A stretch of DNA of 64,000 nucleotides from Macrocystis pyrifera. Taxonomy: Eukaryota; Sar; Phaeophyceae; Laminariales; Laminariaceae. Positions within the stretch are counted from its first letter, which is position 1. The number at the start of each line of letters is the position of its first letter. The position numbers and the translations under genes were made by a program. Of the stretch, positions 25,341 through 58,159 are shown in pieces. A model generated the notes under the pieces. That model was not told the DNA's origin and made no database searches. It saw nothing but the letters and a program-made list of their open reading frames with translations. The stretch spans positions 6,563,054 through 6,627,053 of the forward strand of contig JASSKH010000016.1 in assembly GCA_031763025.1 (NCBI GenBank). Direction: 5' to 3'.

Positions 25341-26030
25341 ATGACCACAGCAGCAGTGACGCTCCCTCGACGCACGGGCAGACACGCGGCGGGACCCACG
25401 CCGACGGAGGAGAGCTGGGCGCCCGCGGCTTATCCCAGGGAAGACGCAGACCCCTTCCTACAGCCCAGGATCTCGGTGCGCTTTCCCGCCGCGGCGTCTC
25501 ACCCCGAGGCTACAGCGAACCCAAAGGGAAACAACGAAGACTCAGCCTGGTGGCAGGCGAGCCGGCGCTCGTCCTCTGTCGACGCGGACCAGACGCAGCC
25601 GCCGCAGGTCCAGCCTCAGCAGCAGCAACAGCAGGGGCAACAGGGGCAACAGCAGCAGCAGCAAGCGCAGGCTCATCCCCCGAGCTTCGCCCCAGGACGT
25701 GGCACGGTGTGGCCGGACGGGCCAGTCGGCCTCGAGTACAACAACAGCAGCACGATCCGAGGCGGTTCTCTGCCGGTGGCGAGCGGTAACATGGCGAAGG
25801 CGGGCTACATGTCGCAACCGCCGCCCTTCGACCCCGAAGATCGCCTGGAGATCTTCTCCAAAAGGGTCGGGGGCTTCGGCGCCGAGCAGGCGGCGCCCGG
25901 AGCCGGCGGCGGTGGCGGCAGTGGTGGTGGCGGAGAGAGACCGGCTGGAGAGGGGGACAAGGCACCCCGACTTCCGTCGCACCCGCCGCAGGGGGAGTTG
26001 GCCTCGAAGTTTGGCCATCATCATCCTACG
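25341..26030 (+). CDS. EsV-1-7 repeat protein, proposed exon 1
   Basis: Codes for 230 residues beginning MTTAAVTLPRR. The start is the first ATG after an in-frame stop. Composition is unlike the flanks: GC-rich with strong GC at third codon positions, as expected for a real exon. The protein part is disordered: a Gln-rich run (about residues 85-112), a Gly run (about 189-200), a more ordered PPPFDPEDRLEIFSKRVGG (about 166-184) and HHH near the end. The frame meets a stop at 26037. I propose a donor at 26031 (CCTACG then GTGGAA), phase 0, which is a weak-to-fair splice site. Alternatives: the stop is real and this is a separate small gene, or a stronger-looking AGGTACGG at 26138 is used in another frame. 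No family is recognisable from this exon alone. Confidence 0.6.
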
Positions 26031-26309
26031 GTGGAATAACCGATCCGGCAACCTCTACGGGCATGCCCTGGGCGAGGCCTGGAGGAGGAGGAGGAGGAGG
26101 AGGAGGGAGGGGGAGGGTCACACCACGATCTACGCCAGGTACGGGCCCTGCGCGAGAGCGATGTTGGCGTGCAAGAGAGATGCCTTGCACCTGGGTCGTG
26201 TGAAGGCGGTTAATTTTCCGAACTTCCTTGTTGTATGTTGTACTCGTACTTTTGTTATGATAGAACGAAGCCTGCGGCTGTATTTTTTTATGCTGCTCGT
26301 AAGGTAGTA

Positions 26310-28168
26310 ATATGTGCGTGCCTTTAGCTGGTGTTGTTGCTGCTGCTGTTGTTATCATGGCGAGAGAGGCAGATAAGTGGATATTGCACGAGAGAGACCC
26401 TCTTGCTTGTTGTTTATTTACTTCGTTATGTGTGGGGAGGGTAAAAAAGTCAAGTCTTGCGCGCAAATTGAAGATAGATGCTGTGCTCGTATGATACAGA
26501 GAAGGCAAACCATACGCAAACGTTCTTCGCGCGTATGGTATTGATTGTTGCTGCGCTCTCTGCACGTTCTTCATGATGAGCGCGCAACCGAGCGAGAGCG
26601 TCCAACCACCAGCAGCAGCAGCACCGGTAGCGTCAAGCTTCAAGTTTGTTATTTCTTCATACAGATACAGCAGCAATATATAGGTACCTGGGGTACGTAC
26701 TGCTATCAGACAACGATGCCTATCCATGCTATCTACCGTATCTATCACGCAAGTACCAGGTTGAACGACAACTTTTCGATAGTACTATTTTTTACCCGGT
26801 TTTTGTACATTACGTGGTGTAGAAGGTTCCCGCGGAACACTGCTGCTTGCTCCATTCTGTACTTACGCCTGCTGCTGGTGTTGCTGTGCTGTGGTGTGAG
26901 TGATGGACGCAACAAGTTATTCACTCAAGAATTGGTATGAAAACCGTGAGGAATACCCGTCGAGATACTCTCGGTCAAGATAATAATCAATCGATTTTTA
27001 CTATTTCTTCACAAATAGGCTCGCTCACTCACACCACGTGATCGCTCTTTCTTTTCCTCCTCGCTCTTCTGCTGCAAGCCCACACGAGGGATAAGCACAA
27101 GCAAGCGTGGCACAACTCGGCAGGACGCTACTGCAAACCCCTATACTTGCGTTCGTTCGGTCAAATATGAGGAGGACAAGGGCCGTATGCTCATCACCGG
27201 CCGGCATTTTGTATAATCTGTGGTGTATTCTCCTCGCGGACATCGCTCATCGCAGACCTACGTTTAATAATAATGCGCTCCCATGCATCGTTCACGGCAG
27301 GCAGCAGACCTGATTTGATAGATGTCTGGTCCTTTAAAATATTATTATGAGGCCCGCCCTGTAAAGGAAACGTAGAATGTTGAAGCACTATTAATAGTAA
27401 GGTATAGTGCTATCTATATATATATTGTAGATTTTGTGTCTCGATTTTGGGGCATTTTGACTCGAAAAAGGGTGAGCTCAAACGAATTGATTGAGTGGAT
27501 CTAAAATACATGCCGGAAAGCTCTTTTGACAGGAGTCCTGGAGCTTTCGAATGAGCCTATCAGAAGTATACAGCCGCTACTAAAATCACCGTATCTCAGC
27601 AACTACGGGCGATGCAGTCGAAAATCGCTGCAGATATCGAAACCCAGTTTTCACAGCTATTATTGTATGGCACCATACTCGTCCCCGAGCCCTTTCGAGT
27701 TGCAGTCTAAATTATCCAAAGAATAAAACTTAAAAAACGAAAATGTCTTTTAATTGTCATGCAAACCCCGTTGGTATGGGTTCAAAGTTCAAATAAATAA
27801 ATGCGTACTATCCTTGTTTTCGCCTGCTCACACCCCCCGTCGATACCGACTCCCCGAAACGAAAAATAGCATTGTCGAGAGCGCAGCTGCCAAAATGAAG
27901 TTTTTTTTGTTTCATCCCCTGCCCCCGGGAACAACGCCTAGAAAGTCCTGAACGAAAACCTCTAAAAATCTCCGAGGGACAGGTCAAATCGACACTCCCT
28001 AGCCGATACGATGGTGCCTGAACAAATCTTGTGTCGATTTCGATGTACAACTGTCAGCACTCTGTACGTAGAGAATTTTGATCAAATGAAATCCATTATG
28101 AATTGAGTGAGTTCCAACCGCTCAATCAAGTAAAACCACTGACACCAGATTTTAGCACCATATATACT
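26310..28168. other. No gene; unclassified block at 27400-28150
   Basis: 26310-27400 holds nothing recognised. 27400-28150 differs in texture (few TACGTAC words) and its ends carry a weak inverted match: TTGATTGAGTGG near 27489 against CCGCTCAATCAA at about 28119-28130. It could be a worn non-autonomous DNA element. Confidence 0.3.
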
Positions 28169-28420
28169 TGTGTATCATGAGGGTCTCGTAGTGGTCGTTG
28201 ATTAGCGGAAAGCGCGAGAGCGTGAGTTAGCTGTACATTCGATGAAAATCGACGAGCAGTGGGAATGCTGAACCCTATGCGCGATAAAAAATAAAGGCAC
28301 GTACCGGGGGGGAGAAGGGACGACACCTGTGACCACGGCTTGTCCAGAACATCGTCGAGGGTAAAACCTCCTACGAGTGGGCTGGAAAGTAAAAGTGATG
28401 ATAAAAAAAAAAAAAAAAAT
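28169..28420 (+). mobile_element. SINE-1 copy, 5' truncated, poly-A tail
   Basis: Matches the body of 23400-23787 in the opposite orientation: GCGGAAAGCGCGAGAGCGTG, CGACGAGCAGTGGGAATGCT, GACACCTGTGACCACGGCTT. It ends in ATGATAAAA then a 17-base A-run (28403-28419). No tRNA-like head, as in a truncated insertion. Confidence 0.88.
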
Positions 28421-28705
28421 CGTTGTCTTGCTTGGATGCAACACGGGGACACCAAGTAAGTGCACTTCTAATAATATATCTATCGCCATCACTAGACAGC
28501 ACAAATTATACCGCTCGCTGTACTACCGGCAACAGAGTAGTATGCATTCCTGGTAATGCGTACGCATTGCTGCTACTGTAGAAAGTGTAGTCCAGACTAT
28601 TACATTCCTGCAGGCAGTATGTAATGTACCATCAGGTATGCAATGGGTGTATGACGATCGGGTCTACAACAGCGAACAGCGCCACACTGAAAAAAGTGCC
28701 TTGTA
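28421..28705. other. No feature seen
   Basis: Short stretch between the SINE and MITE copies. Nothing recognised. Confidence 0.5.
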
Positions 28706-28809
28706 TCACGGAGGAGGTCCGTAGTAGGACATACGGTACACACAGAAACCTATATTTTCACGTAATTTTACTAACAATATTTGGTCCTATTTACTATGGT
28801 CCTCGGTAA
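28706..28809. mobile_element. MITE-T copy, reverse orientation
   Basis: Right end reads ACAATATTTGGTCCTATTTA and CTATGGTCCTCGGTAA before TA (28810-28811). Left end TCACGGAGGAGGTCC after TA (28704-28705). AT-rich core AAACCTATATTTT as in the family. Confidence 0.85.
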
Positions 28810-28811
28810 TA

Positions 28812-31369
28812 GTATATCACTCCCCTTAAGGTACAGCGCCCTAATCCGTGAAGTATTTTTTTTCCCCACACAATACACCGTTGTGTGCTTTCTTACCGTT
28901 CTTCTGCACATCCTTCGTATAAACGTATATACCCATCATAGACATCCAGCACAGCCAAGGTCGGATGCTTCATCCCATTGCTCGTACACTAGTAGAGGGA
29001 TAAGAACTCGCTGTGCTCTGTGGTATCAAACTACGAAACGAATACTATACACCAGGTATAGTCGTAAGAACAGCAGCAGCAGTAGGTAACGGGATTGGCA
29101 CTGCCACACGCCAAATAAGTAAGGATAATATAGTTTAGGCAATGAATGACAAACATGAATTGAAGTAAGCAACCAAAGCACACGCAGACAAACAACTCCT
29201 CACCTCCTGAAATAACCAGGGACGTACGTATTGCACTATGGTACCCATACGTACGGTATGGATGTGTATATTGCACTGCCCCCTGTTGCTATAATAATAA
29301 ATAGTGGTTGCCTCACCCCACTTTCCTGCTGAAGGCGCATCTACTACTATTAATACTATTATACTCCTACTACTATATGTATAAGTAGTACTACCTGCCG
29401 TATAGCAGTGGCTCAAGTAGTGAATAATACCGAACCGGGTTTTTGCTGCGTCCGAGATGTCTATCGTCTGCAGCTTCAAACAGGGTTGGTTGTTTTGGTA
29501 TCGTTGGTTAGAAAAAACCTACGTACGTACGGCCGGCGGTTAGATTGTGTGTGTGTTGGTGGAAGTCTGTTTGCGTACGCTCGTACGACACGGCACTACT
29601 TTATACGTATTTTTAAAACTATTATTCATACCTGGGGTGCCTCTTTTAGAGAATACCTGGTATTAATAGGAAAAATGGACGAACTGCTGCTGCCTCTGGT
29701 GCTTCCTACTTCTTCTGATGACGCTTGTTGTCCTACCCAACCCCACCTCCCGCACTCCGTTGCTGTACACCAATACCTTGTGGCCCCAGAGAGAGGTTAG
29801 TTAGTGTATACATGATGAGACTACTATCGCTGTGATGCTGCTGTTTGAAGTCATCACATGTAATGGTACTGCTGTAGGTTTTCTAGACGGCACCCCAGCG
29901 CGCGGCACTTCGCGGCACCACCACATGTATGTATATTATACAAACAGTAGTACACCTACGTACCAGGTATATATTAGTATAAGTACTATAGCTACTGTGG
30001 TTGGTTGTGGCAATTTTCAATTCCGACTATAATACAGTATTCTTGAACAAAGTAATACTTACTGCTCATTCATTACTGAGATTCTTGAAATACACCAGGT
30101 ACCAGGTATACATGCTACTGTTTGTACTACTATCTTTCTACACACCACTGCTTTACTATTACTACATATTCCTACTATATTAAAGACTGCATGCTGTGGT
30201 ATTGCAATCTCTCTCGGCTTCCCCCCCTTTCTTTTATCGGATACATCTAAAAAATTACCCGTCAGGTTAGGGTCGTGTGTGCACCAACAACTACTGCTTG
30301 CTGCGTACCTGTAGTACATGCATGTATGTTTACAAATTTATAAAATGTGCCATAATATGTACTATTAATACTACAGCTGTAGGTGATGCTGACTTGTTGC
30401 GAATTACAACAAGCACCATCAATAGTAGTGCCAATCTACATACGTATGTATCTGGTATATATATGCTCTACCAGGTTCGTACGTGTGTATGCTTTTTCTC
30501 CTTACTTTAGGTATTATTATACCAACCAACAGTACGTACGTACCAGGTACGAACCAGCATGTATGCACGTAAAAGTATTTCTTAATATGGATGTTCTTCA
30601 CATAAACCGAGTGACCACCAGCAACCAATGACCAGCTATTTGTAGGTACGAACAGCAGCACTGCTCTTAGTCTACTGGTATGCAGTGCTGCATAGCAGGC
30701 TACTTGTAATATCAACATTGTAGCCACCTATTATATCTACGAATCTACAACGGAGCCGTTATTGGCATTAGAATACGTGCCAACCAAAAAGAGTCTAGAC
30801 CAGAGCCAGCACGTATAGATTCCTTCTCCTTCTGCCAGCAGTTTGTAGTATCATGATGTAATAGATAGACACCGGCGATAGCGCGAGAAAGCGGAGTTGG
30901 TGCTTTGCTTTTTTTTTTTTTTCCATGAATTAACTTTTTCCTATATTTTCCCCTTTTCTTGTCCTTATGAAAGAAGTACTACATAGTGGGTGGGTGGCGA
31001 GCGTATTTTGGCCCACTCATTATTTCTCTTTTTACTTAGTTAAGTGTTCACCGGGATGCATATTATAGTTCCCTTTTTCCTTCTCGTTTCTTCCCCCTTG
31101 CACGTCCTTTTGGCTCATGCTCGGAGTAAGTATGTGTCTGAGCTTTGGCTTCCCATTTTATTTATTTAGTTGGGATTCTTCTCATTTTCTTTTTCTTTTT
31201 CTTTTTCGGTTTGGTTTCTTGGTTGCTTCTCTTTCTTTATGGTGTATTTTGGTTGCTGGCGTATGTATGTATGTTGTGTCGGCCGCACCTAGTGCGAAGG
31301 CATGGTATATTGCGTAGTAGGCTATTAATGCATTACGGTGTATTATCTCTGTGTCGTAGTCTGTGACCA
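28812..31369. other. Long stretch without a gene, rich in TACCTGGTA and TACGTAC words
   Basis: About 2.5 kb. TACCTGGTA or TACCAGGTA at about 29653, 29958, 30103 and 30539, and close variants at 29049, 30095 and 30475. Words such as ACTATTAATA and GTACGTAC are frequent. A T-run lies at 30909-30922 and (CTTTTT)n at 31187-31208. Open frames are AT-rich and without domains. Confidence 0.5.
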
Positions 31370-31462
31370 CAGAGCTCATATCTTTCTAGGGTGAAGAATC
31401 AGCACGGACACTGGGCTTGCTGGATGTCGACGAGTAGAAGAACGGTTTAATGTGAAGAACAC
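31370..31462 (+). repeat. Interspersed repeat family D, partial copy
   Basis: CTGTGACCACAGAGCTCATA, AATCAGCACGGACACTGG, TCGACGAGTAGAAGAACGGT and AATGTGAAGAACACACAC follow the same order as in 33380-33495. Confidence 0.75.
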
Positions 31463-31469
31463 ACACACA

Positions 31470-31662
31470 TTCGATGAACATCTACGAGCAGTGGGAATGC
31501 TGAACCCTATGCGCGATAAAAAATGAAGGCACATACCGTGGGGGGAGAAGGCACGACACCTACCTGTGACCGACCACGGTTTGTCCAGAAAAAGACCGCT
31601 TAGGGTAAAACCTCATACGAGTTAATCTGGAAAGTGAAAGAGATTAGAAAAAAAAAAAATAC
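31470..31662 (+). mobile_element. SINE-1 copy, 5' truncated, poly-A tail
   Basis: Body match from CTACGAGCAGTGGGAATGCT to CTGGAAAGTGAAAGAGATTA and a 12-base A-run (31648-31659). It abuts a family D copy at its left end. Confidence 0.85.
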
Positions 31663-33234
31663 ATATATATATTAATACATTCGTATTTCTCGGTTTGTTT
31701 TGGTTCCTACCTCGCAGCACGCCGAGTAGCATATTGGTCGGTTCACAATAATAGTAGTAGTGGTTAGCGAGGAAACACGTTTGCTTCAGTTGCTGCTGGC
31801 GCCGCTGCTTGCTGCGTCGGTTTATAGTTGCTGTGTTTTATTGTGTACAGCAGTGCTACTGTATTCCCCCCTTACGGGTATTATCTGCTACAGACATCAG
31901 GACGAGGCGACTGAGAGTGAGGCAACGGACGGTGGGCTTACAGAAGGGCCATACAGGACTTTTTCTCAGAAGGACCATACATACATTACATGCGTATCAC
32001 ACACACCACCAGTCAATCAATCAATGTTATAGGCATGTGGAGGAAAGTGTAAATATTGTTTCAGGCTAACTCTGTTGTGAAGGGTTTACTCTGGTGGGTA
32101 CACCTTTTTACCAGCAGTTCAGGGGTCTAGACCATTTTTTCGTACCCTCACAAAAAAGATTCAGCAATATTTACTACTTAGTCGTCGGCAATATTAATAC
32201 CAAGACATGAAAATATTAATTTATTTTACGAGGTCCTCATTCATTGCTATTACGTGGTAGGAATAATAATTAAAGCAATATAATAATCTAACATCGTTGG
32301 TGATAACGCACATGCCTCGTACGCCAGACAGTTTGAAGTTTGAGTGTAGTGCGCTGGAAATTATCCTGCCATAGGGGCCAATTTCGGACCGAACCGTTCT
32401 AATTTTCGGTACTGTTTTGTATTATTATTCTAAAGAAAGGTATGATCACGTACCAGGTTCATATTATACAATTAATTATACGTATTGTAGAAGTATTCAT
32501 ACACGTATAAATACTAATTATTGTTGTTTGCTTTCATTTATCGTAATATTATAGTTGTAATTGCATTTTTTTGTTATGTAAAAACGACTGCTGTTGATTT
32601 TTTTATTGTTATTATTCATGGTGAGGCCGTGCCTGTTGAATGCTATTGTTATTACGTACCTGGTAGTGTGGCAGCAGTGCCTGGTATGGGCGTATGCTAT
32701 TCGCGTATACGAATATATCCACACAGCAGCAGTACATATCTTGCTGGGCTCCCGTCACCAATAATAATTGCTCTTGATGGCTGCGGTGGACGATTGGTGG
32801 GGTGGAGTGGGTGGGTTGGTGAGTAGGTGGGGCGGTGGATACAGTTGATGGATGCTACCCTCGTCTTTCCTCGGGCCACAAAAATCAGCGCACACGAAAC
32901 AGTTCACGAACGGGGCAATAACATACGTGCCGGTACAGTCAGGGTCCACGAACAAGAAACGCCGCCTGATCTACAAGTACTATATACTGCTGTAAAAAAA
33001 GGCTTGAATCCTCGGTATGACACCAACTTTGAGCAACCTCGACCATTGCACTCGGATCACAAAAATGAGCTGTTGTTGTCATACCACCATTCTGGCCGGA
33101 AAAAAAAAAAAACTGTTTGGTCTTGATGTTTATACCCCAACGTTTCTTATTTTTACGTCCAGTGATAGGTACTGTAGTTAGTACCTGGTGGTTTATTGTA
33201 GTACAGTACGAAGCGCTCGCCGCTTGCACGAATT
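31663..33234. other. No gene recognised
   Basis: Contains TACCTGGTA at about 32656 and TACCAGGT at about 32448. A repeated GGTGGGTTGGTGAGTAGGTGG-type G/T stretch lies at about 32795-32835. No credible coding region. Confidence 0.45.
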
Positions 33235-33497
33235 TTTACTCCAAAATTCTTGCGTAGCGCCCCCGAGAAAATGAGCCTGACGTTCTTGTTAGGTTGTTTC
33301 TTATTCGTGGGCCTGTGTTGAATGAGTATCATGCCACACGCCAGTGTTACGTATGGTTCATGCATCTGCATCTCTGCGTCGTTTTGTTGTGACCACAGAG
33401 CTTGTCTCTCTGAGATTGAAGAATCGGCACGGACACTGGTTGTTTGGGAGATCGACGGGTACATAGAGAACGGTTAAATGTGAAGAACACACATAGA
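33235..33497 (+). repeat. Interspersed repeat family D, longest copy
   Basis: Starts near ACTCCAAAATTCTTGCGTAG and ends TTAAATGTGAAGAACACACA. Related copies: 3290, 31370, 46270 (minus), 47865 (minus) and 61200 (minus). No coding capacity. Whether it is a solo LTR, MITE or SINE body is unresolved. Confidence 0.75.
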
Positions 33498-34442
33498 CCG
33501 AAGTAAGGATGCCGGATGCCGAGCCATCGCATCCCCCAAGACCGATTTTCAGAGCCCGATTGCTCCACAGCTACAATAAGAGGCTACGAAAACCGACCGA
33601 CTCGCCTAAGCAAAGCCCTCAACGAGATGTTTCCACAGCCAACCTATTCTGCATTGGCACATTGGCACCCTCCGTCCGAGTTGTGGGGCAAATCGGGCAA
33701 ATCGGTCTATTTAAAAGGGGGGGTGCGATGACTCGCATCCTTACGGTATACATACCCGTGGTACCACTTTTTACCTTTTTGTCCGAACATGTAAAGTTCG
33801 TGGGGTCTTTAAAATGCCGAGTACAAATACCCGAACGGTGCCTAAATTTCCAGACAGAGTGGTGTTTATACTTGAGTGTCTCCTCCCTTCCGCCTGGAAA
33901 CGTTTCCCTGCATGCATGCACGATGTTGTATTTTTGCGGAAGATTCTATAGGCGATGGCGGTAAGAAATCTGAAGTATCACCGGCAAAAATCGTATGTAT
34001 TGACGTAGGGGTAGGCGTGCATAGAGCGTTTTTGATGGATCGAGAGCTGGGTGGCGTTCGTTGGAAGAACACGACGACTAAGACATTAGCTCGCCACGTG
34101 CGAAACTGTGCTTTGCTGTTAGCGCTTTCTTTTTGTCGTGCCTGCTTTGTCGTGCCTGCTTTGTCAATTATTGATAAGTCAGTGCTGCAGTAGTAGAATT
34201 CTTGTCGTTCTGTCTTTCCGTAATTGTGTCTACGCATTCAAGAATGAGTTGAGAGTGAATTAATGGATGAATGTATCCAATCACTGTGAGCTGAGAGTGA
34301 ATAAATCGATGAATGCATCTAAGCACCGTGCGAGCCTTCGTGGTACCTGGTGCGGTATTTCAATCTGGTCGTGAATACTCCGGATGTTCGGTGGGCGTCT
34401 ATTGTGTATAATTGTCCTTTTATTTGCCATCAGGCTTGTACT
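33498..34442. other. No gene recognised
   Basis: Frames at 33509-33964 and 33876-34193 lack domains. A tandem pair GAGTTGAGAGTGAATTAATG and GAGCTGAGAGTGAATAAATC (34245-34305) has a unit of about 57 bp. Confidence 0.45.
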
Positions 34443-35057
34443 TGTCAAGGTGTTGCCTCATATTGAGCTCTAGGGGTGAACGAACTATCGATCGATTACC
34501 CACCCTAGGGTAATCCTTCTGACACCAATCACTCCACACCAGAAAACAAATAAATTCATTCCAAACCGTCATCCGTTTCAAGTCCGCCTCGAAAGCAGCT
34601 CTTAGCAGGATGCAGCTCACACTTCATGCGACTTGCCCAACACCTCACGGCGCTTTGCGCTTGGTGCAAGCGGTCAATTCCTGCCTGGTCGATGAAAAAC
34701 GGACGTGTTGCATTCCAGAATTGTAGGGATGCGAGGGTCTATGGTAATACGACTACGGCCACGCATGACATGCAGCACACACACACACACCCTCTGAAAA
34801 GCGGGATATTTGGGACGTAGCGGTACCGTGTACGACTTACGCGTGGACTTACCAGCTTCGTTTTAATACATGGGGAACTAGGGAGACGTTCTTTTCGGAC
34901 GGCATGAGCAAGCGTTTAAGTAAAAGAAACGTACGAACTGAGATTCGAACCCGTGTTCTCGACGACGTCGAATGTCAAGGTGTTACCTCCCTGTTACTGA
35001 GCTACAGGGGCCGAAGCGAGTGGATCGATAACCCAGCCCAGGGTAGTCCTTGAAACA
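34443..35057 (-). mobile_element. TRIM-B copy with a family B repeat nested in it
   Basis: On the minus strand the 5' LTR is 35057-34973 (TGTTTCAAGGACTACCC ... CCTTGACA), followed by a PBS-like TTCGACGTCGTCGAGAACAC and an internal part matching 5118-5290 down to about 34786. The 3' LTR is 34524-34443, again TG...CA. Between the internal part and the 3' LTR, where the polypurine tract should be, lies a family B repeat. Non-coding; old by the difference between its LTRs. Confidence 0.75.
34525..34788 (+). repeat. Interspersed repeat family B, nested in TRIM-B
   Basis: Aligns with 48780-49040: AAGTCCGCCTC, GGATGCAGCTCAC, CACCTCACGGCGCTT, GCGCTTGGTGCAAGC, GTAGGGATGCGAGGGTCTAT, GGTAATACGACTACGGCCA. 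Here the C-run is replaced by (CA)n (34769-34786). It sits exactly between the internal part and the 3' LTR of the TRIM. Confidence 0.8.
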
Positions 35058-36470
35058 CAACAGGCATATGCTGCGTGCACCTTGTGGACGGACGCACAAC
35101 CTCAGTAGCGCGCGGGGGGGGCGAGGGGGGGGGGGCTGTACACTCCACGCTACCGAAAGCAAGGAAGGAATGTGGCACAGACGTCGATGGAGTTGAACCG
35201 GGGCCCTCCCCTCCCCTCCCGCTAATGTTAGCTTCACATGCTGATATGTTGATAGTGTGCACCTGAAGAAATTCGAGATAGATTCATAACTGCTGCAGCA
35301 ATGAACAACGAAGGCATGGCTTCTGTTGATACCACCAGTGTCCATACGATAATGGTGATTTGGCGATGCGTCATACGGGATGGGTTAACCCTGCCGACAT
35401 TAGTATACCTGGTACAGTGTCAGTAAGGGTGCGTAGATGGATGGTATGAAGGCCGGTATTATGATGATTGATGTGATACCAACAGAACAGTAGTCAAGGC
35501 TGCGTTGCAACACTCAATTATTTATTTGATGGAGATCTGGCACACGCAGAACACCGCACCACGTACGTACGCATATTAAAGTACTAATATCACATATACC
35601 AGGCACACTACCCGTAGAGCACGCGCGATCGAATTATCAACAAATCTCACACCAAGCATATGCAGAGATGAGCTTTGGGCAAAAATTCGATCTACCAGCT
35701 TTGTTTTCTTTTTCATCTTTTTTTTTCCGAATATAGCAGGTAGGTACGTAGCCCCCCTTTGATAACTAAGGGAAACCGATAAATAAGGGACCTAAAATTT
35801 CTGTGCACCGGTTTCGCCCACTATCAAGGACTATCCACAATAAGGGGACTGAGTCCCTTGTAGTGGGCGTAACGCTCAATAAGCGGCTGCACGTCCCTTG
35901 AAATGAGTCTCCCTGAACGCGCCCTGTCCCCCCACACGAGAAACGCCACGTAGATTGCCAGAAAAACATATGTGCTCGCCAACCTACCCCCGTGCCGTCC
36001 TGTCGTCCCAAATTTTGAATGATATCGTATTGGCCCTTTGCTACCAGACTTTCGGTCCCTTGAAAAATAGGGTCCAGTTTATGGGACGTCGATATATACG
36101 GGATCTCCGGTCCCGGCGCACTACCAACGCTTTCAGGACTGCAGTCCTATAAAAGGGTTAACAGGCTCCCTTTACATGTATCAGTATATATGTATCATAT
36201 ACTAGTCTGGACGGAAAATAAGCATTGTTTGGTCTTCAAAATTGTTATCCTCACGGCCCTTACGTTTCGGTCCGGAGTGGTGCATTAATATGATACCCTG
36301 GTAGTGTACTTTTGATTCGGGTGGACTCCGCGCCATATTTTCGAAACGATATCGCGATGACTGGCGGACGGGAGCACGGCACGGGCGTTCGTTCGCTTGC
36401 GTTGTCCTTGAGAAAAGAACCAAAGGGAACGGACGGGGGATGGGTTGCTGGCTACCTGGTTAGTTGCTCC
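35058..36470. other. No gene recognised
   Basis: G-runs at 35115-35134. TACCTGGTA at about 35406. A segment at 35770-36150 rich in GGGAC...GTCCC words resembles family H loosely. 36241-36290 matches the short family G (TTACGTTTCGGTCCGGAGTG). Confidence 0.4.
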
Positions 36471-36472
36471 TG

Positions 36473-36511
<39 letters not shown>

Positions 36512-36512
36512 A
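36471..36512. repeat. (CTG)n microsatellite
   Basis: TGCTCCTGCTCC then about ten CTG units. No coding frame is supported over it. Confidence 0.95.
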
Positions 36513-37425
36513 CAACAGCTGCAACAATAGCCGCAAGAATCAACAATGCCATCGGTTTTGTTGATGCTGTGTTGACCCGCTTGCCCTGCCTTTGTCGGTT
36601 GGTTTTCCACGGCCGGCTGGTGGATGCTGACGGTGTAATTCGATAGGTAGTTAGAAAGGTATTGCTCTATCCAGTTGCCCCCCCCCTCCATAGGATATCG
36701 AGTACACCCTCCACTCCCCCCCCTATGATCACAACAACAACAACAATAAAATAGCAACAGCTACAACAACAAGAACAACAACGACTACACCTAACAGCAA
36801 CATACAACGACAGGAACAGCAGCAACAGCAACATCATCCCCTCGTTTCGTGAGCAGCCAAGAGTTGGAATGGTGCCTGCGTAGACTGTTATGGTATACAG
36901 ACGTATCTACCAGGTACACACCACAGAAAGGGTTGCCGCCATCTCGTCGTAGTATTTAATAGTACATCCTGCTGTGCACTTGGTATAGTATTTGTAGTAT
37001 TTTTGCGTGTCAATATCGTAGTATACTGACGGCAGTAGTAGTAGAAGTAGTAGTTCGCATAGTAGAAGTAGTACTAGTAGTAGCAGTAGTAGTACTAGTA
37101 ATAGTAATAGTATCAAAATAGTAGTGAGGTGGTGTTAATATTAATAGTAGCAATGGCTACGAGTATTGCTGTTGCTGTTGCGCACCTAACCGTTAAAAGC
37201 GCGTTGATTGGTGAAATTTGTCACCGTAATACTCGTTAGAACTTGGTACGTACCGCTACACTTTAATGTCTTTTGACATACATATATATATATATATCGT
37301 ATTTACCGCTAGCGGGTTGGTTGAATGATGATGGCTAGATATGCGGATAGGTGGGTGGGTAGGTAGGTAGGTGGGTAGGTCCCCGCTTGCTCCTCCTCGT
37401 CGTCGAGTTCGCCCTCGGCGAGCAG
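36513..37425. other. No gene; triplet-rich sequence
   Basis: CAACAACAA-rich at 36730-36785 and (GTA)n-like at 37025-37115. (TA)n at 37279-37298. A G/T-rich GGTAGGTAGG stretch (37345-37378) and a pyrimidine-rich CTCCTCCTCGTCG tail precede the exon 2 acceptor. Confidence 0.5.
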
Positions 37426-37533
37426 CAGCAACAGCAGCTCACGTACACTGGTTCTTATCCCGTCCTCAACAGTGTGCCGATGCAAAAAAGTTTTGCTCCC
37501 TCGAAAATTGACGGTGACCGTGATGATGCTACG
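37426..37533 (+). CDS. EsV-1-7 repeat protein, proposed exon 2
   Basis: A short exon of 36 residues: a Gln start, then LTYTGSYPVLNSVPMQKSFA and SKIDGDRDDAT. The translated text is balanced and non-repetitive, unlike the surrounding triplet repeats, which is why I think it is coding. The acceptor is a tandem CAGCAG (37423-37428), so the exon may begin at 37426 or 37429, both phase 0. The donor is GCTACG then GTAAAA at 37534, phase 0. Both phases fit exon 1 (ends in phase 0) and exon 3 (begins in phase 0). It was found by frame and splice-site logic only. Confidence 0.5.
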
Positions 37534-38296
37534 GTAAAAATAATAATGATGATGATGGTGGTGATGCTGATGATGATGAGGGGCTTCCGTCTTCTCAGTT
37601 CTCAGCCTTCCGTGCCTTTTTTGCGCAGGAGGGACTAACATCGACGACAACTCACAGCAAGAAACAAACCAGGTACCTCAGGGTACCTGATGAATGTAAA
37701 AATACTACCCGCACGATGCGTAGACCCTGCTACAGTGCATACACAAATTAAATTGTGGTTTGTATTATTTCCTGATACATACGTATGTATGCACATACAT
37801 GGTATATTTTTGCCAGAGGTGTACGGGTAATACATAAATCTAGATACATATTTTCCCATTTCATATTTTTGCAAAAAAATATCCCACGTACATATTTCTG
37901 CTACGTCCACTACACTATTATAGTAATAGTAGTATTGTACACGCCCGTTCCTAAGGAAACATACACAGAATGCACCATTGCGCACACTACAAGTATAATA
38001 GTAATGTACAACCTCCACATGCCTCTTCAAGCAGAAATGGGAAGATCGTGGGGCACGTGGAGATGCAACGGCCTGCGTGACATATCACGCCCCAACAAGG
38101 CTCAGAACACTTTTTGATCTCATTCACAGTACCGGCACTTGCTATTAATACTATTTTTGGATCCTACTGCTACTGCTGCTGACTGTCGCCATTTTTCCGC
38201 CGATGCCCATACGACAGCAATGTGAGATACTGGTGCTAGATCCCGGGGTTTCCCTTATAAATCTTGGACTCCTCGGAATAGACACATCGCGCGAGG

Positions 38297-38352
38297 GTGG
38301 TGGTGGTGGTGGTGGTGGTGGTGGTGGTGGAGGTGGTGGTGGTGGTGGTAGT
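38297..38352. repeat. (GGT)n microsatellite
   Basis: GGTGGTGGT array with one GGA interruption; the poly-Gly frame over it is an artefact. Confidence 0.95.
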
Positions 38353-38705
38353 GATGATCGTGGTAGCGGTGGCCCCCGCCTAGATCTACATAACTGGTAT
38401 CATATCATACAAGCACCTACTACTGGATCACCTTTTGGCATGTATACATTGTTTCTGAAACACCGATATATTTCTTTCATTTTTTGTGCGATTTTTTTGT
38501 TTGCTGTGACCTCGAAAGGCGCCGCCCCCCGTTGGCCCTGCTGTAGGTTCGGGCTGGTGGGATGCCGGCCTTTCCCCCAACCCTTCTGAGCGATCGGCCC
38601 TCGGCTCCGCGTAGCACTGCTGTCCTCCCCGAGCGGCGTTTTCGAGAGGGGGCTTCGCGGTCGGCCCTTCCCCCCCCCCCGTCCCCAGTCAAGTCACCAG
38701 ACGTC
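38353..38705. other. No gene recognised; GC-rich part
   Basis: 38515-38700 is GC-rich and open on the minus strand (about 70 codons, basic) but has no domain. A C-run is at 38670-38680. Confidence 0.4.
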
Positions 38706-38925
38706 CCGTGTTCATTGTGGCTTCAGTTGCCCCTGTAGCACTTTACCCGCGTTTTTGGGGGAAAACGACTTGGAATTAGTGTAGTATCATTTGTGCAGCA
38801 CTGGTGAAAGTCTTGACCTCTCTAGGAATGCAGTCCCATTGTTGGGCGAAAAGACTCGGAATTAGACTCAAAATTTAGGTACATGTACAGCAGCGGTGCA
38901 GGACTAAGAGGGTTAACGCTCCACG
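38706..38925 (+). repeat. Family H, tandem pair
   Basis: GGGGGAAAACGACTTGGAAT (38757-38776) and GGGCGAAAAGACTCGGAATT (38844-38863) head two related units, ending in GGACTAAGAGGGTTAA. Confidence 0.6.
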
Positions 38926-39174
38926 CAAAGAGATACCTTCGAACCAGCCCCGCACTTTCCAGGCAACGTTACCTATGAGGACCTTTTTTTGGGTTGAAAT
39001 ACGAACATGCAAAACGCTCCTTGTACTTTCCGTATGGCAGTGTGACTAAATGTCATTATGATGTTTGTGAGGACCTTTCTGGATTATATACCAACATGCA
39101 GAAAGGTCCTTGTGTCTAGGGACAGAATGGTACATACGTAGCAGTATGACGATATTGTATTCCGTGTTCGTGGT
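38926..39174. other. Family G-like fragments
   Basis: Two facing words, GGACCTTTCTG (39071) and CAGAAAGGTCC (39098), form a short inverted repeat. Otherwise nothing recognised. Confidence 0.4.
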
Positions 39175-39390
39175 GTTTTTTTTTTTTATAGTAGTCGCTT
39201 TAACTTTCCAGCGGCGCTCTGGACAAGCCGTGGTGGTGACAGGTCTCCCCCCTTCCTTCCCCCCATCCCCTCCCGGTACCACTGTTGCCTTCATGCTTTT
39301 GCGCATAGGTTCCTTTCAGCATCCCCTCTGCTCGTCGGCTTTATCCGATTTTTTGCTAACTCACACTCTCGCGCGCTTTCAGCGTCATGA
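39175..39390 (-). mobile_element. SINE-1 copy, minus strand
   Basis: Starts on plus with a 12-base T-run (poly-A tail), then ACTTTCCAGC, GGACAAGCCGTGG, CAGGTC, GCGCATAGG, CTGCTCGTCGG and CTCACACTCTCGCGCG as in the family body. Confidence 0.82.
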
Positions 39391-39530
39391 GAAACAAAGG
39401 TGCACACAAGTAAATGACTTGTTTTTCGATTTGGTGACCCGCCGGGTGTCGTCGGACCCCTACCCCCATGCTCAGCAGAGGTGATATATATATAATATAC
39501 CTGGGTATATATATATATACGCATCGTTTC
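39391..39530. repeat. (AT)n-rich spacer
   Basis: GATATATATATAATATACCT and GGTATATATATATATACGC (39483-39522) between two SINE-1 copies. Confidence 0.7.
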
Positions 39531-39725
39531 TGCTTGCTGGCTCAACGCGTGGGAGGCTCTACCCTTAGCAACATTTTGGACAAGCCGTGGTCACAGGTGT
39601 CTTTCCCTCTCCCCGGCGCTCTGCGGCCATGCATGATATCGGGTGCCCCCTCCCCCCCGGCGCTTGTCTTCGTTTTTAGTGCGCATTGGGTGCAGCATTC
39701 CCACTGCCATGTAGCCCTCTTACCC
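39531..39725 (-). mobile_element. SINE-1 copy, minus strand, diverged
   Basis: CGTGGGAGGCTCTACCCTTA, TTTTGGACAAGCCGTGGTCA, CAGGTGTC and GTGCAGCATTCCCACTGCC follow the family order. No long T-run at its start. Confidence 0.78.
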
Positions 39726-40350
39726 CTTCGAAGATTGCACTCCTACTCATGGGGACTAAATAAACACTTGGAAATAGAGTAAGATTTGGGGTTTCTGCAC
39801 AGTGCAGAACTAAAAAATGGTTCATGGGTGTGTTTGTTGTTTCTGAACTACTGCATGTTGGCACTAATCTATACAGCATGTTGCTCCAGCTCGTCTGCAT
39901 CTTCGGCCTTTTTTTGGTTTTTGTTCTCCGGATAAAGAAACGCGAGAATCGAAACCCCCCGTTTTTCTTACAGCAAAGAGAGAGGAGGCCAGCACGGGCA
40001 GTCATTGGCTCGCGGTCCATAGTTGCGACGCGATCTTGAAGCGGTTTACCGGATTCACAGCAACGAGCTGCTGAGCTGACCGGGCTTCTGCTGCTGCCAC
40101 GCCGCAAAAGGAGGGACTTTATTTTTCCCCGCCTCCTCCCGCCGCGCCATATTTGAGCTGCGAGACGAACCGTGCGCGTCGTGGACTATTAATACTAGAG
40201 GGGCACACCCACCGCTATGGCTTTTCCGATAGTGAATTGATGCTTAGTCGCACCCCACCTTGTCCGTCTTGCTACTGCAAAGAGATTCCCACGAAAAATC
40301 GAAGTATCTCTTGTCCCCGAAAACGCGGATTCAGATAGATACCACTCCTG
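39726..40350. other. No gene; family H trace at the left
   Basis: 39735-39775 carries GATTGCACTCCTACTCATGG then GGGACTAAATAAACACTTGG, as in family H. The rest has no recognised feature. Confidence 0.45.
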
Positions 40351-40685
40351 TCGGCAATGTAAGGACCGTTTAGACATCAGCATGAAGACGGAGCGGTCCT
40401 TGTATTTCCGTCCAGAGATAGTACCAGGGGAAATTGTGAGTGGGGGGAACCCCGTTTTCTCTGCAGAAATGACCCCTCAATATTTCCACGTTATTATGTT
40501 GTACCCACGTCCCCGGAAACGCGGGTGCAGCTTTTAAACCCGGTGAGGGCTGCACTCCCGCTCTTGGGGACAAACTACTTGGAATTAGAGTGGATTTTAA
40601 AAGGCATGAACAAGCTACGTGTTAATCCCATTGGTCTTTGGGCACAGCGTTACTTGGAATCAGAGAGGGGGGGTCGTCCTTTGCA
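40351..40685. repeat. Families G and H, adjacent copies
   Basis: Family G word GGTCCTTGTATTTCCGTCC lies at 40394-40412. Family H follows: GGCTGCACTCCCGCTCTTGG, then GGGGACAAACTACTTGGAAT (40566-40585), and a second TACTTGGAATCAGAG (40651-40665). Confidence 0.55.
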
Positions 40686-41405
40686 GCACTGTCAAAAAAA
40701 CCGTGCTATTGAAAAAAAAAAGAAGTTCAATTTGGGGATGCGAAGCCTCGTGAATGCAGTCAAAGTTGTAGCTCGCTCGTAGAGCACGTGCCTGCGACCT
40801 AGTGCCTTGTGCGTGGGTGCCGATTACGCGCTACCTACGAGGTGAGCAACGAAGCATCATTCATTCAAATGGAAGATTCAGCTTCGGGTTCTCTGCGTGA
40901 ACCTCGAGCGGAAACTTCCCAGGTGGGACGCAAGCACGTGGGATAGTTACAAGACCCAACGAGGTTATCGTATGCACGGTTCATTTTTTCGCGCGCTCTG
41001 ATCCAAACGCGCCGCCGAAAGCGCGGACTTTTGGCTGCATACGAAGTACCGGGCACAGCTGGGACTGCGTGAAAAAAAAAAACGCGACACGCTTGGGTCT
41101 CGCGGAGAGGTGCGATTGTTTCTCGGTCGCTCGCTGTCCTCGACACTGGAGAGGGTGCCAAGAGTTGAAAACACACATTCGAAAAGCGCTTGACAATATT
41201 TTTTTCCGAAAGCACCCTGTTCGGCGTTGGCTAACCGTCCGGCTGTGGAAGAGTCGAGCAGTTAAAAAACGGTCGTACCCCTCGTACGAAACCATAGTGG
41301 TTGACGGTAGTCGGTCCTGTAACGCCGCGCCCTGCTCTATGAGCCGCTCCTCTCACGAGCGGATGCGTCTACTAATACTCTCACAGAAAAGTGATGAATG
41401 CCTGA
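40686..41405. other. No gene recognised
   Basis: At 40768-40835 a tRNA-like word pair (GTAGCTCGCTCGTAGAGCAC and GGTGCCGATTAC) is present but stems do not form; perhaps an old SINE head. Open frames on the minus strand lack domains. Confidence 0.4.
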
Positions 41406-41489
41406 GCAATTGTTTTTTTTTTTTTGTTTCCCCTTTTTTTTCGCACTTTTTTTTTTGGCGAGGGGGGGGGGGGGGGGGGGGGGGGGGGG
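41406..41489. repeat. T-rich tract followed by a 28-base poly-G run
   Basis: T-runs from 41413 to 41456, then G from 41462 to 41489. Poly-Gly frames over it are artefacts. Confidence 0.95.
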
Positions 41490-41794
41490 TCGTGCTTCTC
41501 CGGCGGTGACACGGGTCGATTCATGATTTTCCTTCTAGAATCGCGCGCGATAGGTTAATGTTTGTCGACGGAGCGTGCATCTCTCCTATCAACACACGCA
41601 CGCACGCAAAGCAGCTATCCCCTTTCTAGCAGCCGCCTCAGAATTAATTAAGCCGAGGTTGAACAACGACTGCTATACTGTAACAGCTACCATTCAGTAG
41701 CTGCTGCAGCATTTAGATCGTCGTGTCAAATAGAAGCCAACCGAGCCCCATTAGAACAACTAAATATAGCACCACGTAGCTACGTAGCTGTCGC
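41490..41794. other. No feature seen
   Basis: Intron sequence without recognised repeats; a short CACGCACGCACGCA run at 41594-41607. Confidence 0.5.
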
Positions 41795-41944
41795 ACCGAT
41801 CCCTGGCCTTACCTTTGTCTTGCCTTCTCCCTACCACACTGTGGTGGTCGTGGTCCGTCTGCCGCCCCTGTGCGATCCCTAGCCTTGTCTCAACTTCCCG
41901 TGTACCTCAACGGCTCTGTGGTGGTCGTGGTTGCTGTGGTGCAC
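41795..41944. repeat. Tandem duplication, about 78-bp unit, before exon 3
   Basis: CGATCCCTGGCCTTACC ... CTGTGGTGGTCGTGG (41795-41852) recurs as CGATCCCTAGCCTTGTC ... CTGTGGTGGTCGTGG (41873-41931). Pyrimidine-rich, just upstream of the exon 3 acceptor. Confidence 0.75.
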
Positions 41945-41965
41945 GTTTCTCACCCTGACGAGCAG

Positions 41966-43640
41966 GTGCACAACGAAAGGGAGCCTGAATCCGTTTGCGG
42001 GCCGTCCCAACGGCTCCATGAAATGAAGGAGTACTTCCGCAGGCACCAGAGGGCACCTCCGGGGTCACACGAAGACCACCGCTACCCTTTCTTCGAGAGC
42101 GCCGTGTTCCGATCGCGGACGGGCGCTAACGTCCACGACAGCCGCAGAGGGGAAGCCGCTCAGCAGCAGGGCAACGCTAACGGTAACGCGAACGGAGGCG
42201 GTAGTGGCGGCGGTGGGGGCGGTGAGGGGAGCAACGGTGGCAGCGCGGTGGGCGGCGGTAGCGGTGGTAACGGTGGCGGGGGCGGCGGGGGCGGCGGCGG
42301 TGGTGGTGGTGGTGGCGGTGGTGGCAGCGGAGGTGGCACCGGCGGCGCAGGCGGAAACAGGCAGGGCGAGCGCATGCCTTGGCATGAGGGCAACGACACC
42401 TACCCCCCTTCCGTTACAGCACCGGAACCTTCATCTGGAAATCCTCCGGCAGTCGGAATAGTTAACATTCAGGGCAGCGACGCGGGTGAGGGTGGCGGTC
42501 GGGCGTGGAAGGTCGGAAGCGGCGGCGGCAGTGCCGCCGCCGCGGTTGCCGCCGCCGCCGCCGCCGCAGCGGCCGTTTCTGACGTCGCCGGAGGCGGCGC
42601 TAACGGCGGCGGAACCGGCGTCGGTAACGACGACGGAGACGTTGCCGTAGAATTCGACCCCCAGGGGGACTGCAGGCCGGTACACACCGGGCAGGTGGCG
42701 CCGGGAGGCAGTCCCACGTCCTGGTGGAGAGACGTGCCCGAGCCCGTCGTGTCCACGTTCCCGTGGGACCTGCAGCTGCCGAACCCCGCGCCGCCTTTGG
42801 CGCTCTCGCACGCCCCGATCGACGTCCGTGAGCTCCCGGAGTCGACCGCCACGACCGCGGACCCGCTGTCGGCGGCGGACGCGGCCGGCTCTTCGACGTT
42901 CCGTGGGGACTGCCATTTCGCCAAAACGGCTGCCTGTGGCGGCGGTCACCCTCGTCATCGTGCCGCGGAGCGGCTGCAGCAACCCGGCGCGCTCGACATG
43001 ATGGACAACGGCGGAAACGGCGGCGGCGGCGGCATTCGGCCCGGGAGCGGCGCTGTGTTGATGGACGCGGCGGCGCGGGGGACGTATGGAGGTGTGCGGT
43101 GGGGTGTCAACCCGGCGCCCACTGCGGTGGAGGTTGCGTGGGGGCTTGGTGGCAGAAGTGGTAGCAGCGGCGGCGGTTACCTCGCCAACCGTAAGATGGA
43201 AGAGATGCACCGCGGAAACGCGCCGCCTTGCGACACCCTAGTCCCCCCCGGCCCTCACGCCCCAGCTTACAACGTCGTCCCCGTGAACCCGAGGGGCATG
43301 CTGCACTCGTCTTCCCTCGGAGGGGGCTCCGACCGCTTCGCGCCGTCCGACTTCAAGTCTCTCTCCATGTCTGGGAACAGTTTTGGCGCCGATGGGATGG
43401 CGTTCGCTTCCCGCGAGGCTCGTGCCAAGCGTGCCCGAATGACCAAGCGGGAGGGGGGGCACCTGGGCCCCGGTGGGATCGGCATGCTCGGCGGAGAGTC
43501 TGCGTTTGGGCAGCGCCTGGATAAGGGCGGCCGTGGGGAGTCGCGTAGGCCCGAAGGACGGGACGCGACGGGAGAAGGAGGGGCGCGCACGATGGTACGA
43601 AAGAAGACCCCGGCCAGCAGCCGGAGGTGCCGTCACGAAG
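41966..43640 (+). CDS. EsV-1-7 repeat protein, exon 3 (central part)
   Basis: Codes for about 558 residues (267-825 of the model). I start the exon at 41966 after CACCCTGACGAGCAG, a branch-point-like CTGAC plus AG, phase 0; a later start codon (LHEMKEYF) is possible if this were the first exon. Order: EMKEYFRRHQRAPP and YPFFESAVF near the start, a long Gly/Ser/Asn region (about 344-394), an Ala run (about 454-472), a Pro/Asp-rich part, then a basic stretch AKRARMTKR (about 750-760) that could be a nuclear localisation signal, and finally CRHE, the first half of an EsV-1-7 repeat. The donor GAAG then GTAAGAG at 43641 is a very good site, phase 1. GC content and third-position bias are strong throughout. 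The low-complexity parts predict a mostly disordered protein. No enzyme domain is visible. Confidence 0.85.
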
Positions 43641-43694
43641 GTAAGAGAACCAGGGTGGGGCAGAGAATATGTTGTGTAGCAGGGGATACCAGAT

Positions 43695-44269: not shown

Positions 44270-44560
44270 CTTCACCCTTCGAACAGGCCATCGATTCCCT
44301 CTTCTCGATAGATCCCTGGTCTATATGATCTATATCTCAAGCTCAACGTTCCCTGGTGGGAGCCGTATAATCTCATGATCAGCAATAGGATATGCTCCCT
44401 GGGTTGGATCTGTACGCTGCAGATCCTGCACAGCGAATGTCACTCCGGCTGGTTAGGATCCAGATGATCTATCTGAACGCTAGACACATCCTGCACAGTG
44501 GATGTTATTTCGGCGGGTCAGGATCGAGATGTTCTACCCGGCGATCTATCCGATGTCGCT
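44270..44560 (+). repeat. Interspersed repeat family E
   Basis: CATCGATTCCC, GATCTATAT, AGGATATGCTCCCTGGGTTG, GGATCTGTACG and CAGATCCTGCACAG follow the order seen at 9715-9890. GATCCTGCACAG- and CATCCTGCACAG-type words occur twice, so the copy has an internal duplication (about 44425 and 44488). Confidence 0.7.
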
Positions 44561-46269: not shown

Positions 46270-46375
46270 GTCCTTTCTACCCAGCTTAATCACTACACCA
46301 ACTGTCCGTCCTGACCCCTTAACCTAGCGAGAAATTGCTCTGTCCCATAATGCAAGAACCTGTTTTACACCATTT
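46270..46375 (-). repeat. Interspersed repeat family D, diverged copy
   Basis: CGTCCTTTCTACCCAGCTTA, ACTGTCCGTCCTGA and CTAGCGAGAAATTGCTCTGT follow the reversed order of 33380-33490. Confidence 0.65.
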
Positions 46376-47864: not shown

Positions 47865-47975
47865 GTTGTTCACTTTCAATCGTCCTTTTCTACCCAGCTT
47901 CAGTGCACCCAGTGTCCGTCCTGATTCCTTATCCTAGAGAGATGCTCATTTCTGCGGTCACAGACTGAGAGAGGA
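47865..47975 (-). repeat. Interspersed repeat family D
   Basis: TTCACTTTCAATCGTCCTTT, CTACCCAGCTTC, CAGTGTCCGTCCTGATTCC, TAGAGAGATG and GGTCACAGAC match the family on the minus strand. Confidence 0.7.
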
Positions 47976-48463
47976 GAAGACCAACAACCAAAAATAATGG
48001 CGAATTCAAGGGTCGAGCGAGCGAAGTGCCAGCCTACCGGGTAGGAGAACACAACACAAGCAAGACCAGAATAAGAACGAAAAGACAACGCAACAAAGTA
48101 ATTTCTGCAGCGAAACGGAATACAAATTTGTGGGACGCTATGTTCACGTATGAATTTTTCGGAGTGAAAAATCGTTCTCAGCGACGAGCGCTACACATAC
48201 AGTAACCCCACTCTGGCCGAAAAGTAAGGACGGGTTCATCCTCGTATACAGTGTTAATGCCCAAACCCGCCTAAAGCTACCTAAACGTTCTTTGTGTTTC
48301 GGTTCAGAGTGTAATGTAGTACCCCATGGGCAAGGGTGCTCCAGGTTGGTGTCACGATAAGGTTTAAAGCCTTCCTCAGGTTCGGTGCTTCCTCCCTACT
48401 GGCGTGCGCATTCTGTGTCACACGTTTCTAGAACAAACGGGGCCGAGGAAACGATATATTGAT

Positions 48464-48464
<1 letters not shown>
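47976..48464. other. Intron sequence, trace of family G
   Basis: 48286-48312 (ACGTTCTTTGTGTTTCGGTT then CAGAGTG) resembles family G. Nothing else seen. Confidence 0.4.

Positions 48465-48502
<38 letters not shown>
48465..48502. repeat. 38-base poly-C run
   Basis: Uninterrupted C followed by CCTCCCCTCCCC. Confidence 0.98.
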
Positions 48503-48505
<3 letters not shown>

Positions 48506-48769
48506 CCTCCCCTATTATTTATATATTATCTATGGGTTGGGTTGGCGTCGGTTGGCAACGACACTGTAAAACATGCCGCTCACTACGTGAGCTAGACATC
48601 CAGGGTACCGTTTTTTTTTATTTATTTTTTTGGCGGTCGCCCACAGCCGGTCGTCGAGTTAAATCATTTGTGCGAGGTAAAGAGCCTTTACTCTGCACAA
48701 GGGAATTGATCGTATCGCGTAGTGTTCAAGGTAAGGCACCCAAGAGGTAGTTACATAGTACTCCCATTG

Positions 48770-49044
48770 CTGTCTCTGGAAGTGACTACACCGGAAATTA
48801 AACTAACTCACTGAAGCTGTCATCCATATGAAAGTCCGCCTCACAAGCGGTTCTTAGTAGGATGCAGCTCACCCTTCATGCGACTCGCCGGACACCTCAC
48901 GGCGCTTCGCGCTTGGTGCAAGCAATGTCTGCCTGGTCGGTGAAAACCCGACATGCTCCGTCCCGGCATTGTAGGGATGCGAGGGTCTATGGTAATACGA
49001 CTACGGCCATGCATGAGATCGAGTACATCTCTCCTATCGAGTAC

Positions 49045-49085
<41 letters not shown>
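48770..49085 (+). repeat. Interspersed repeat family B, longest copy with 40-base poly-C end
   Basis: Body as in 34525-34788 followed by CATGCATGAGATCGAGTACA, a short duplication (TCTCCTATCGAGTACACC) and C from 49046 to 49085. The left limit is not sharp. Confidence 0.8.
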
Positions 49086-49086
<1 letters not shown>

Positions 49087-49319
49087 CCGCACGCTGCAAG
49101 GGGCATGTACGGACACGATGGAACTGGACCACGAACGTTGCGTACGCACAGTGCAGCTGCGAGGACACACGTACGCGGTAAACTGCCATATAGACCACGC
49201 GCGTCAACGCAGTATAGTGCGCACTGCTGTACAGGGCTCAGGTTCCGGGGGGGAAACATCCTGAGCTGTAAAACGCTTCCGCAGTTGATTTCACATTTTC
49301 TTGGGATGAAAGCCTGCGT
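49086..49319. other. Intron sequence, no feature seen
   Basis: Follows the C-run; no repeat or coding match. Confidence 0.5.
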
Positions 49320-49561
49320 GTACTGCAAAACAAAATGAAAGATGGAAGCGGTGGTGATAGTTGAAAAAAAAAATCCTGAAACATCTGAGTCCGTGCTATC
49401 CAAATGAAAAATGGAAGTGGTGGTGATACTTACCCCCCCCCCCCCCCCGCCCGCCTCCTGTGGTAGTACGTGGGTTTTCCCTAAATAGTTATTAATAGTG
49501 ACCGTGCTATCAAAATGCGAAAGGAAACTGGTGGTAGTATACCCCCCCCCCCCCCCCCCCT
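49320..49561. repeat. Three tandem units, two ending in poly-C
   Basis: Units at about 49320-49370, 49385-49448 and 49499-49560 share CAAAATGAAAGATGGAAG or a close variant and GGTGGTGATA. The first ends in an A-run, the other two in C-runs of 16 and 18. Confidence 0.8.
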
Positions 49562-49626
49562 CCGTATGACTACGGCCATAAGACTACGATCATGCATGAT
49601 AAGGAGTACCCCCCCCCCCCCCCCCC
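49562..49626 (+). repeat. Family B end fragment with poly-C
   Basis: ATGACTACGGCCATAAGACT, GATCATGCATGATAAGGAGT, then C from 49610 to 49626. It ends 43 bases before the exon 4 acceptor. Confidence 0.7.
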
Positions 49627-49669
49627 TCTACTCCTTCGTGCTCCTTGACACGCCCATTTTTGTTCCCAG

Positions 49670-50013
49670 GATGCCAATCCCACCCCAACTTCGGCGTGGA
49701 GGGGGACCGACGCGCGATCTACTGCGCGAAGCACAAGCTCAAGGACATGGTGAACGTCAAGGCCCCCCGCTGCAGAGAGCCCGGGTGCACCCGTAACCCT
49801 GTCTACGGCCACGCGGGGGACCCGAGGGCGACCTACTGCCTCTCCCACAAGAGCCCCCTCATGGTGGACGTCAAGAACCGCTGCTGCGAGCACCCGGGCT
49901 GCAAGCACCAGCCCTCGTTCGGACTGGTGGGAGACCGCCGCGCTAACTTCTGCTTCGCGCACAAGCTGCCGTCGCACGTCAACATCCGCCGCGCAAGGGC
50001 TAGGGCCAGCTAA
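49670..50013 (+). CDS. EsV-1-7 repeat protein, exon 4 with the cysteine-rich module and stop
   Basis: Completes three EsV-1-7 repeats, each exactly C-X4-C-X16-C-X2-H with 12 residues to the next. In the 938-residue model the key residues are C821/C826/C843/H846, C859/C864/C881/H884 and C897/C902/C919/H922. Conserved words include GDRRAIYC, GDPRATYC and GDRRANFC. The tail after H922 is basic (IRRARARAS) and the stop is TAA 50011-50013. The regular Cys/His pattern suggests metal binding; no structure or biochemical role is certain. Family knowledge: EsV-1-7 proteins are expanded in brown algae, also occur in their phaeoviruses, and include IMMEDIATE UPRIGHT, which acts in early body-plan development. 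I do not claim this is that gene; repeat number alone does not settle orthology. Confidence 0.95.
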
Positions 50014-58051: not shown

Positions 58052-58159
58052 CTGGAAGCGCGCTGTCTGAGCTCCGAGAGGGGGCTGAAACTCTATATCA
58101 GTTCGACTCCCCCGATGTCTGTACGGAACGAAGCGTGCCGCGGACTAAGGGGGAGGTTA

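Follow-up and report, generated by a model that had tools for sequence, protein, structure and literature searches.

A proposed three-coding-exon gene of the EsV-1-7 family, with three C-terminal repeats, in the kelp Macrocystis pyrifera

Genes of the EsV-1-7 family are tied to brown-algal development through IMMEDIATE UPRIGHT (IMM, Ec-27_002610), and the family is expanded in brown algae. The subject of this report is a gene of this family at positions 25341 to 50013, forward strand, of a 64,000-nucleotide stretch of Macrocystis pyrifera DNA (GenBank assembly GCA_031763025.1, contig JASSKH010000016.1, positions 6,563,054 to 6,627,053), which is referred to as the window and whose numbering is used throughout. 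In the literature cited here, the family (PF19114) is credited with some 90 members in Ectocarpus species 7 and is hypothesised to consist of zinc-finger transcription factors (PMC12629598), ten members are described as generation-biased in Ectocarpus (PMC6368402), and IMM is assigned five EsV-1-7 repeats at its C-terminus (PMC12853178). The gene has in common with the family its cysteine-rich repeats, here three in number and preceded by an N-terminal part of its own, and with IMM the position of these repeats at the C-terminus. The gene is real, brown-algal and ends in EsV-1-7 repeats; judged from homology, it is fairly probable that it is a nuclear kelp gene in which three coding exons specify about 940 residues and that it belongs to a three-repeat EsV-1-7 lineage distinct from IMM; it may encode a regulator of transcription or chromatin.

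Relatives in other brown algae were found by protein searches at E ≤ 0.001 (4 matches among 109 candidates, 10 among 5157 and 11 among 7990 scored), in agreement with the family membership assigned by an initial annotation of the window. They include two EukProt predictions, P0003 and P0004, regarded as predicted orthologues; P0005 from Choristocarpus tenellus; P0006 and P0009, which are closely related to the large exon; P0007, which is similarly close to the last exon; and the closest named protein, P0019, a partial product of Laminaria digitata of 259 amino acids. Three coding exons fit these relatives better than the four initially proposed, and the following coordinates are counted as shown by homology:

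25341 to 26138, forward strand: coding exon 1, 798 nucleotides (nt), from the start ATG to the donor CGCCAG/GTACGG; disordered N-terminal part; based on relatives and tblastn.
41966 to 43640, forward strand: coding exon 2, 1675 nt, beginning with GTG and ending with RRCRHE plus the first base of a codon; aligned to P0003, P0004, P0006 and P0009.
49670 to 50013, forward strand: coding exon 3, 344 nt, covering the larger part of EsV-1-7 repeat 1, repeats 2 and 3 in full, and the stop codon.

All three exons have GT/AG borders, and the introns between them measure 15,827 and 6,029 nt. The start at 25341, already chosen in the initial annotation, is borne out by MTT at the matching place in 7 of the 11 exon-1 relatives, the other four of which begin further in. 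At the donor after 26138, nine of the 11 have LRQ followed by V where the homology ends, the remaining two being P0026, with HQQ/V, and P0019, which ends earlier. P0003 (RQ/IQV) and P0004 (RQ/V) pass from this point straight into a block that corresponds to the window from 41966, and they match both the acceptor at 41966 and the junction 43640/49670, which opens into the three repeats; the open reading frame (ORF) P0006 reads through the donor at 43640 (RRCRHEG/K). The pieces at 25341, 41966-43640 and 49670-50013 of the four-exon model are thus retained together with its last junction, whereas its second exon (37426-37533), and with it the upstream side of the junction 37533/41966 and the phases 0, 0, 1, is abandoned in favour of three coding exons. 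When joined, the four pieces do have the borders claimed for them and give 938 residues with three EsV-1-7 motifs. The length survives by coincidence, since 690 + 108 nt equal the 798 nt of the longer exon 1 and the total is 2817 nt in both models.

The first junction of the four-exon model, 26030/37426, is contradicted by exon-1 homology, which passes both the splice site at 26030 and the frame-3 stop at 26037 and runs on to the donor after 26138. Translated searches follow the homology in frame 3 as far as 25877; it resumes at 25937 in frame 2 and extends to 26077-26080. P0019, the exon-1 orthologue of L. digitata, matches the frame-3 piece at 86% identity (E 1.5e-81, tblastn) and the frame-2 piece 25937-26080 at 94% over 49 columns (E 4.4e-24, a value that refers to a 17-kb section of the window). 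It differs in that it ends inside exon 1 and its frame is uninterrupted. P0021 follows frame 2 to 26083 and then frame 3 again over 26118-26171 (HHDLRQVRALRESDVGV, 94%, tblastn); in both P0019 and P0021 the same parts are open and read in one frame. The positions concerned are:

25878 to 25936, forward strand: first frame change (3 to 2) with respect to the relatives, in a GC-rich simple repeat; from tblastn with P0019, P0021 and others.
26037 to 26039, forward strand: TAA in frame 3, between the two frame changes, where the relatives read in frame 2.
26081 to 26117, forward strand: second, offsetting frame change (2 to 3), in a GGA/G-run repeat (tandem repeat 26081-26116); from the P0021 match.

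Assembly indels within simple repeats are the most likely source of both changes. P0009, which derives from another contig, likewise shifts frame where its exon-2 piece ends; indels of this type therefore do arise in the gene, which is GC-rich. A pseudogene or null allele, in which both changes and the stop are real, would account for the fact that frame 3 does stop at 26037, but the reading frame is uninterrupted and conserved in exons 41966-43640 and 49670-50013, the changes cancel each other and both fall inside simple repeats, so that a dead gene is considered unlikely and an assembly error the likelier of the two. Upstream of the ATG, residues 2-53 of P0021 match 25148-25300 in frame 2 (E 6e-12), and in the ATG frame stop codons occur at 25290, 25302 and 25311; the match is read here as leader DNA conserved between near kin rather than as coding sequence.

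The piece that the initial annotation placed between exon 1 and 41966 is as follows:

37426 to 37533, forward strand: former exon 2, 108 nt, phase 0/0, unsupported as part of the gene.

It has an open frame with AG/GT borders, the surrounding ORF (37363-37635) has a somewhat raised GC content at third codon positions (0.64 against 0.53 overall), and since it is 108 nt long in phase 0/0 it would fit between 26138 and 41966 with the frame kept, which makes a cassette form, perhaps of a kelp-specific exon, conceivable. On the other hand, it is missing from P0003 and P0004, its peptide finds nothing beyond chance among 26 fetched proteins (best E 0.17, a QQQQL run), and its upstream junction at 26030 interrupts a conserved stretch. 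Pieces of this kind are also common: within 26031-41965, open AG..GT pieces that are 60-300 nt long and in phase 0/0 number 553, while ten 3-mer shuffles give 299-461 and the reverse strand gives 573. Restricted to GTAA/GTGA donors, the figures are 66 for the intron, 28-63 for the shuffles and 49 for the reverse strand. The count for the intron is thus slightly above that of its shuffles and not above that of its own other strand. A real exon at 37426-37533, constitutive or cassette, is accordingly held to be very improbable, and the gene is taken to pass from 26138 directly to 41966.

As to the start of the gene, P0003 and P0004 are both modelled with a FAD-binding domain (PF01565) ahead of PF19114, so that the true protein might be conceived as an oxidase/EsV-1-7 fusion. 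The points at which the two models leave the oxidase differ, while they share one point of entry into the EsV-1-7 protein, immediately within the conserved MTT start (...Q/VTL and ...S/VTL). Because differing exits with a common VTL entry are what a chance acceptor in the start region would give, the fusion is regarded as a prediction error, apparently caused by a spurious acceptor site in the start codon region. In the window, the in-frame stops before the ATG also oppose it, the oxidase part has no match there (best E 4.2), and the 100 kb preceding the window contain nothing similar to it at E ≤ 1e-3. A genuine fusion would therefore be most surprising. With a start at MTT, the corrected model shows that public annotations of the gene are partial (P0019) or apparently fused (P0003, P0004), and fused models of this sort could mislead surveys of domain architecture.

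The protein that the three exons would encode begins with a long N-terminal part that, as had been described before, is rich in Gln, Gly and Ala and for the most part disordered; short blocks within it are conserved. The protein ends in a repeat tail that is far better conserved than the remainder. PF19114 matches the tail in three stretches (E 1.1e-41, 140.8 bits against a curated cut-off of 25), in keeping with the three perfect C-terminal repeats initially reported. Repeat 1 shows, across the splice junction 43640/49670 in the joined protein, the spacing C-X4-C-X16-C-X2-H, which we take to be that of the EsV-1-7 repeat; the other two repeats, and a basic stretch that had also been pointed out, are placed as follows:

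49771 to 49848, forward strand: core of repeat 2, C-X4-C-X16-C-X2-H, pattern in the sequence.
49885 to 49962, forward strand: core of repeat 3, C-X4-C-X16-C-X2-H, pattern in the sequence.
43421 to 43453, forward strand: conserved basic stretch RAKRARMTKRE, a possible nuclear-localisation signal.

The basic stretch is kept as RAKRARxxKRE wherever it is covered by the alignment, in the four rows of the window, P0004, P0006 and P0009, and the alignment of the variable part further shows the conserved blocks FPWDLQLPNPAPPLAL, LHEMKEYFRR and AYNVVPxNPR. P0003, P0004 and P0005 have three C-terminal repeats as in the window, with repeat identities to it of 89-90% for P0003 and P0004 and of 68-69% for P0005. 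An AlphaFold model of the tail, from which the first cysteine of repeat 1 is absent, is of fair quality, with a mean predicted local distance difference test score of 82.9 and a predicted template modelling score of 0.50; the other four models reach 46-79, and confidence agrees in two of the five. As a separate observation, the reading of P0012 and P0014 departs from the repeat after KAPRCR, which would suit an intron splitting repeat 2 in their sources; the window has no intron there.

The gene is one more member of a known and very large family. Searching the 537-Mb assembly (223 contigs; window at C196:6563054-6627053) with the repeat tail gave at least 201 EsV-1-7 matches at E ≤ 0.001 (803 candidates, 150 scored), many of them clustered. 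The gene itself scored 267 bits, and next among the matches listed was L004, with 113 bits and 53% identity, in an ORF with six repeats by regular-expression pattern. In a tree of 15 rows that included seven paralogue loci of the same genome, these seven stood on one branch of their own (95/90), the window was grouped with P0003, P0004 and P0007 (82/85), and the gene was closer to P0003, P0004, P0007 and, weakly, P0005 than to the paralogues used. The gene would thus belong to a three-repeat lineage distinct both from IMM and from its closest paralogues in the genome. The idea that it is instead the kelp IMM orthologue draws on common family membership and on the same layout of a long N-terminal part with C-terminal repeats; because the window, like P0003, P0004 and P0005, has three repeats as against the five given for IMM (PMC12853178), the gene is taken, by repeat number, to be other than IMM, and orthology is very doubtful. 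Elsewhere in the same genome, dense EsV-1-7 repeat clusters were observed on contigs C133, C191, C194, C195, C206 and C222, one ORF (L010) having 11 repeats; and P0008 and P0010 each have six repeats and, at the C-terminus, a domain in common that spans about 180 residues and has no Pfam match.

Several points weigh against this account of the gene as a whole. As assembled, frame 3 of the window stops at 26037 and yields 232 residues with no repeats. P0003 and P0004, on which the joins of exons 1 and 2 and of exons 2 and 3 lean, are predictions that seem to have been wrongly fused at their start, and P0003 is without most of the second half of the equivalent of exon 41966-43640. In the tree, P0005 is attached to the group with weak support (62/16; a single group is formed in 70% of 200 bootstrap trees), and in the alignment its N-terminal part is without similarity to the window or to P0004. 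Finally, the structure model of the repeat tail had no match in the Protein Data Bank at E ≤ 0.001. Even so, the three-exon gene of a lineage apart from IMM is the reading that is kept in what follows.

With regard to function, each C/C/C/H repeat would bind one zinc ion, the repeats would contact DNA or chromatin, the basic stretch would direct the protein to the nucleus and the disordered part would recruit partners, whereby the protein would act as a regulator of transcription or chromatin. A regulatory, perhaps nuclear, zinc-binding role can fairly be inferred, and the protein is probably a DNA- or chromatin-binding regulator. Such binding fits two other architectures, namely an Ectocarpus Mariner transposase that is reported to have gained an N-terminal EsV-1-7 domain (PMC12477816), and P0002, in which EsV-1-7 repeats are combined with Tudor-like domains (PF21743). 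A broader proposal is more tentative: the gene may be an uncharacterised regulator kept since early brown-algal history, from Choristocarpus to the kelps, and single-copy (by the repeat-tail search) in a fast-growing family, with a disordered part that carries signals, a tail that evolves slowly and binds DNA or chromatin, and a role in development separate from that of IMM; this is possible, though we would not call it likely. Its strongly conserved repeats and its distance from the closest paralogues of the genome make the gene a good candidate for functional work, the more so because knock-outs with Cas ribonucleoproteins are now feasible in Ectocarpus and kelps, as stated in PMC12853178.

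Two minor features lie downstream of the gene. Shortly 3' of it, positions 50779-50991 hold a tandem array of the 6-base unit GTTAGC in about 35 copies, and on the forward strand 57281-58213 gave a weak match, below the cut-off, to the retroviral SH3-like domain PF25597 (E 6.6e-4), perhaps the remnant of a retrotransposon.

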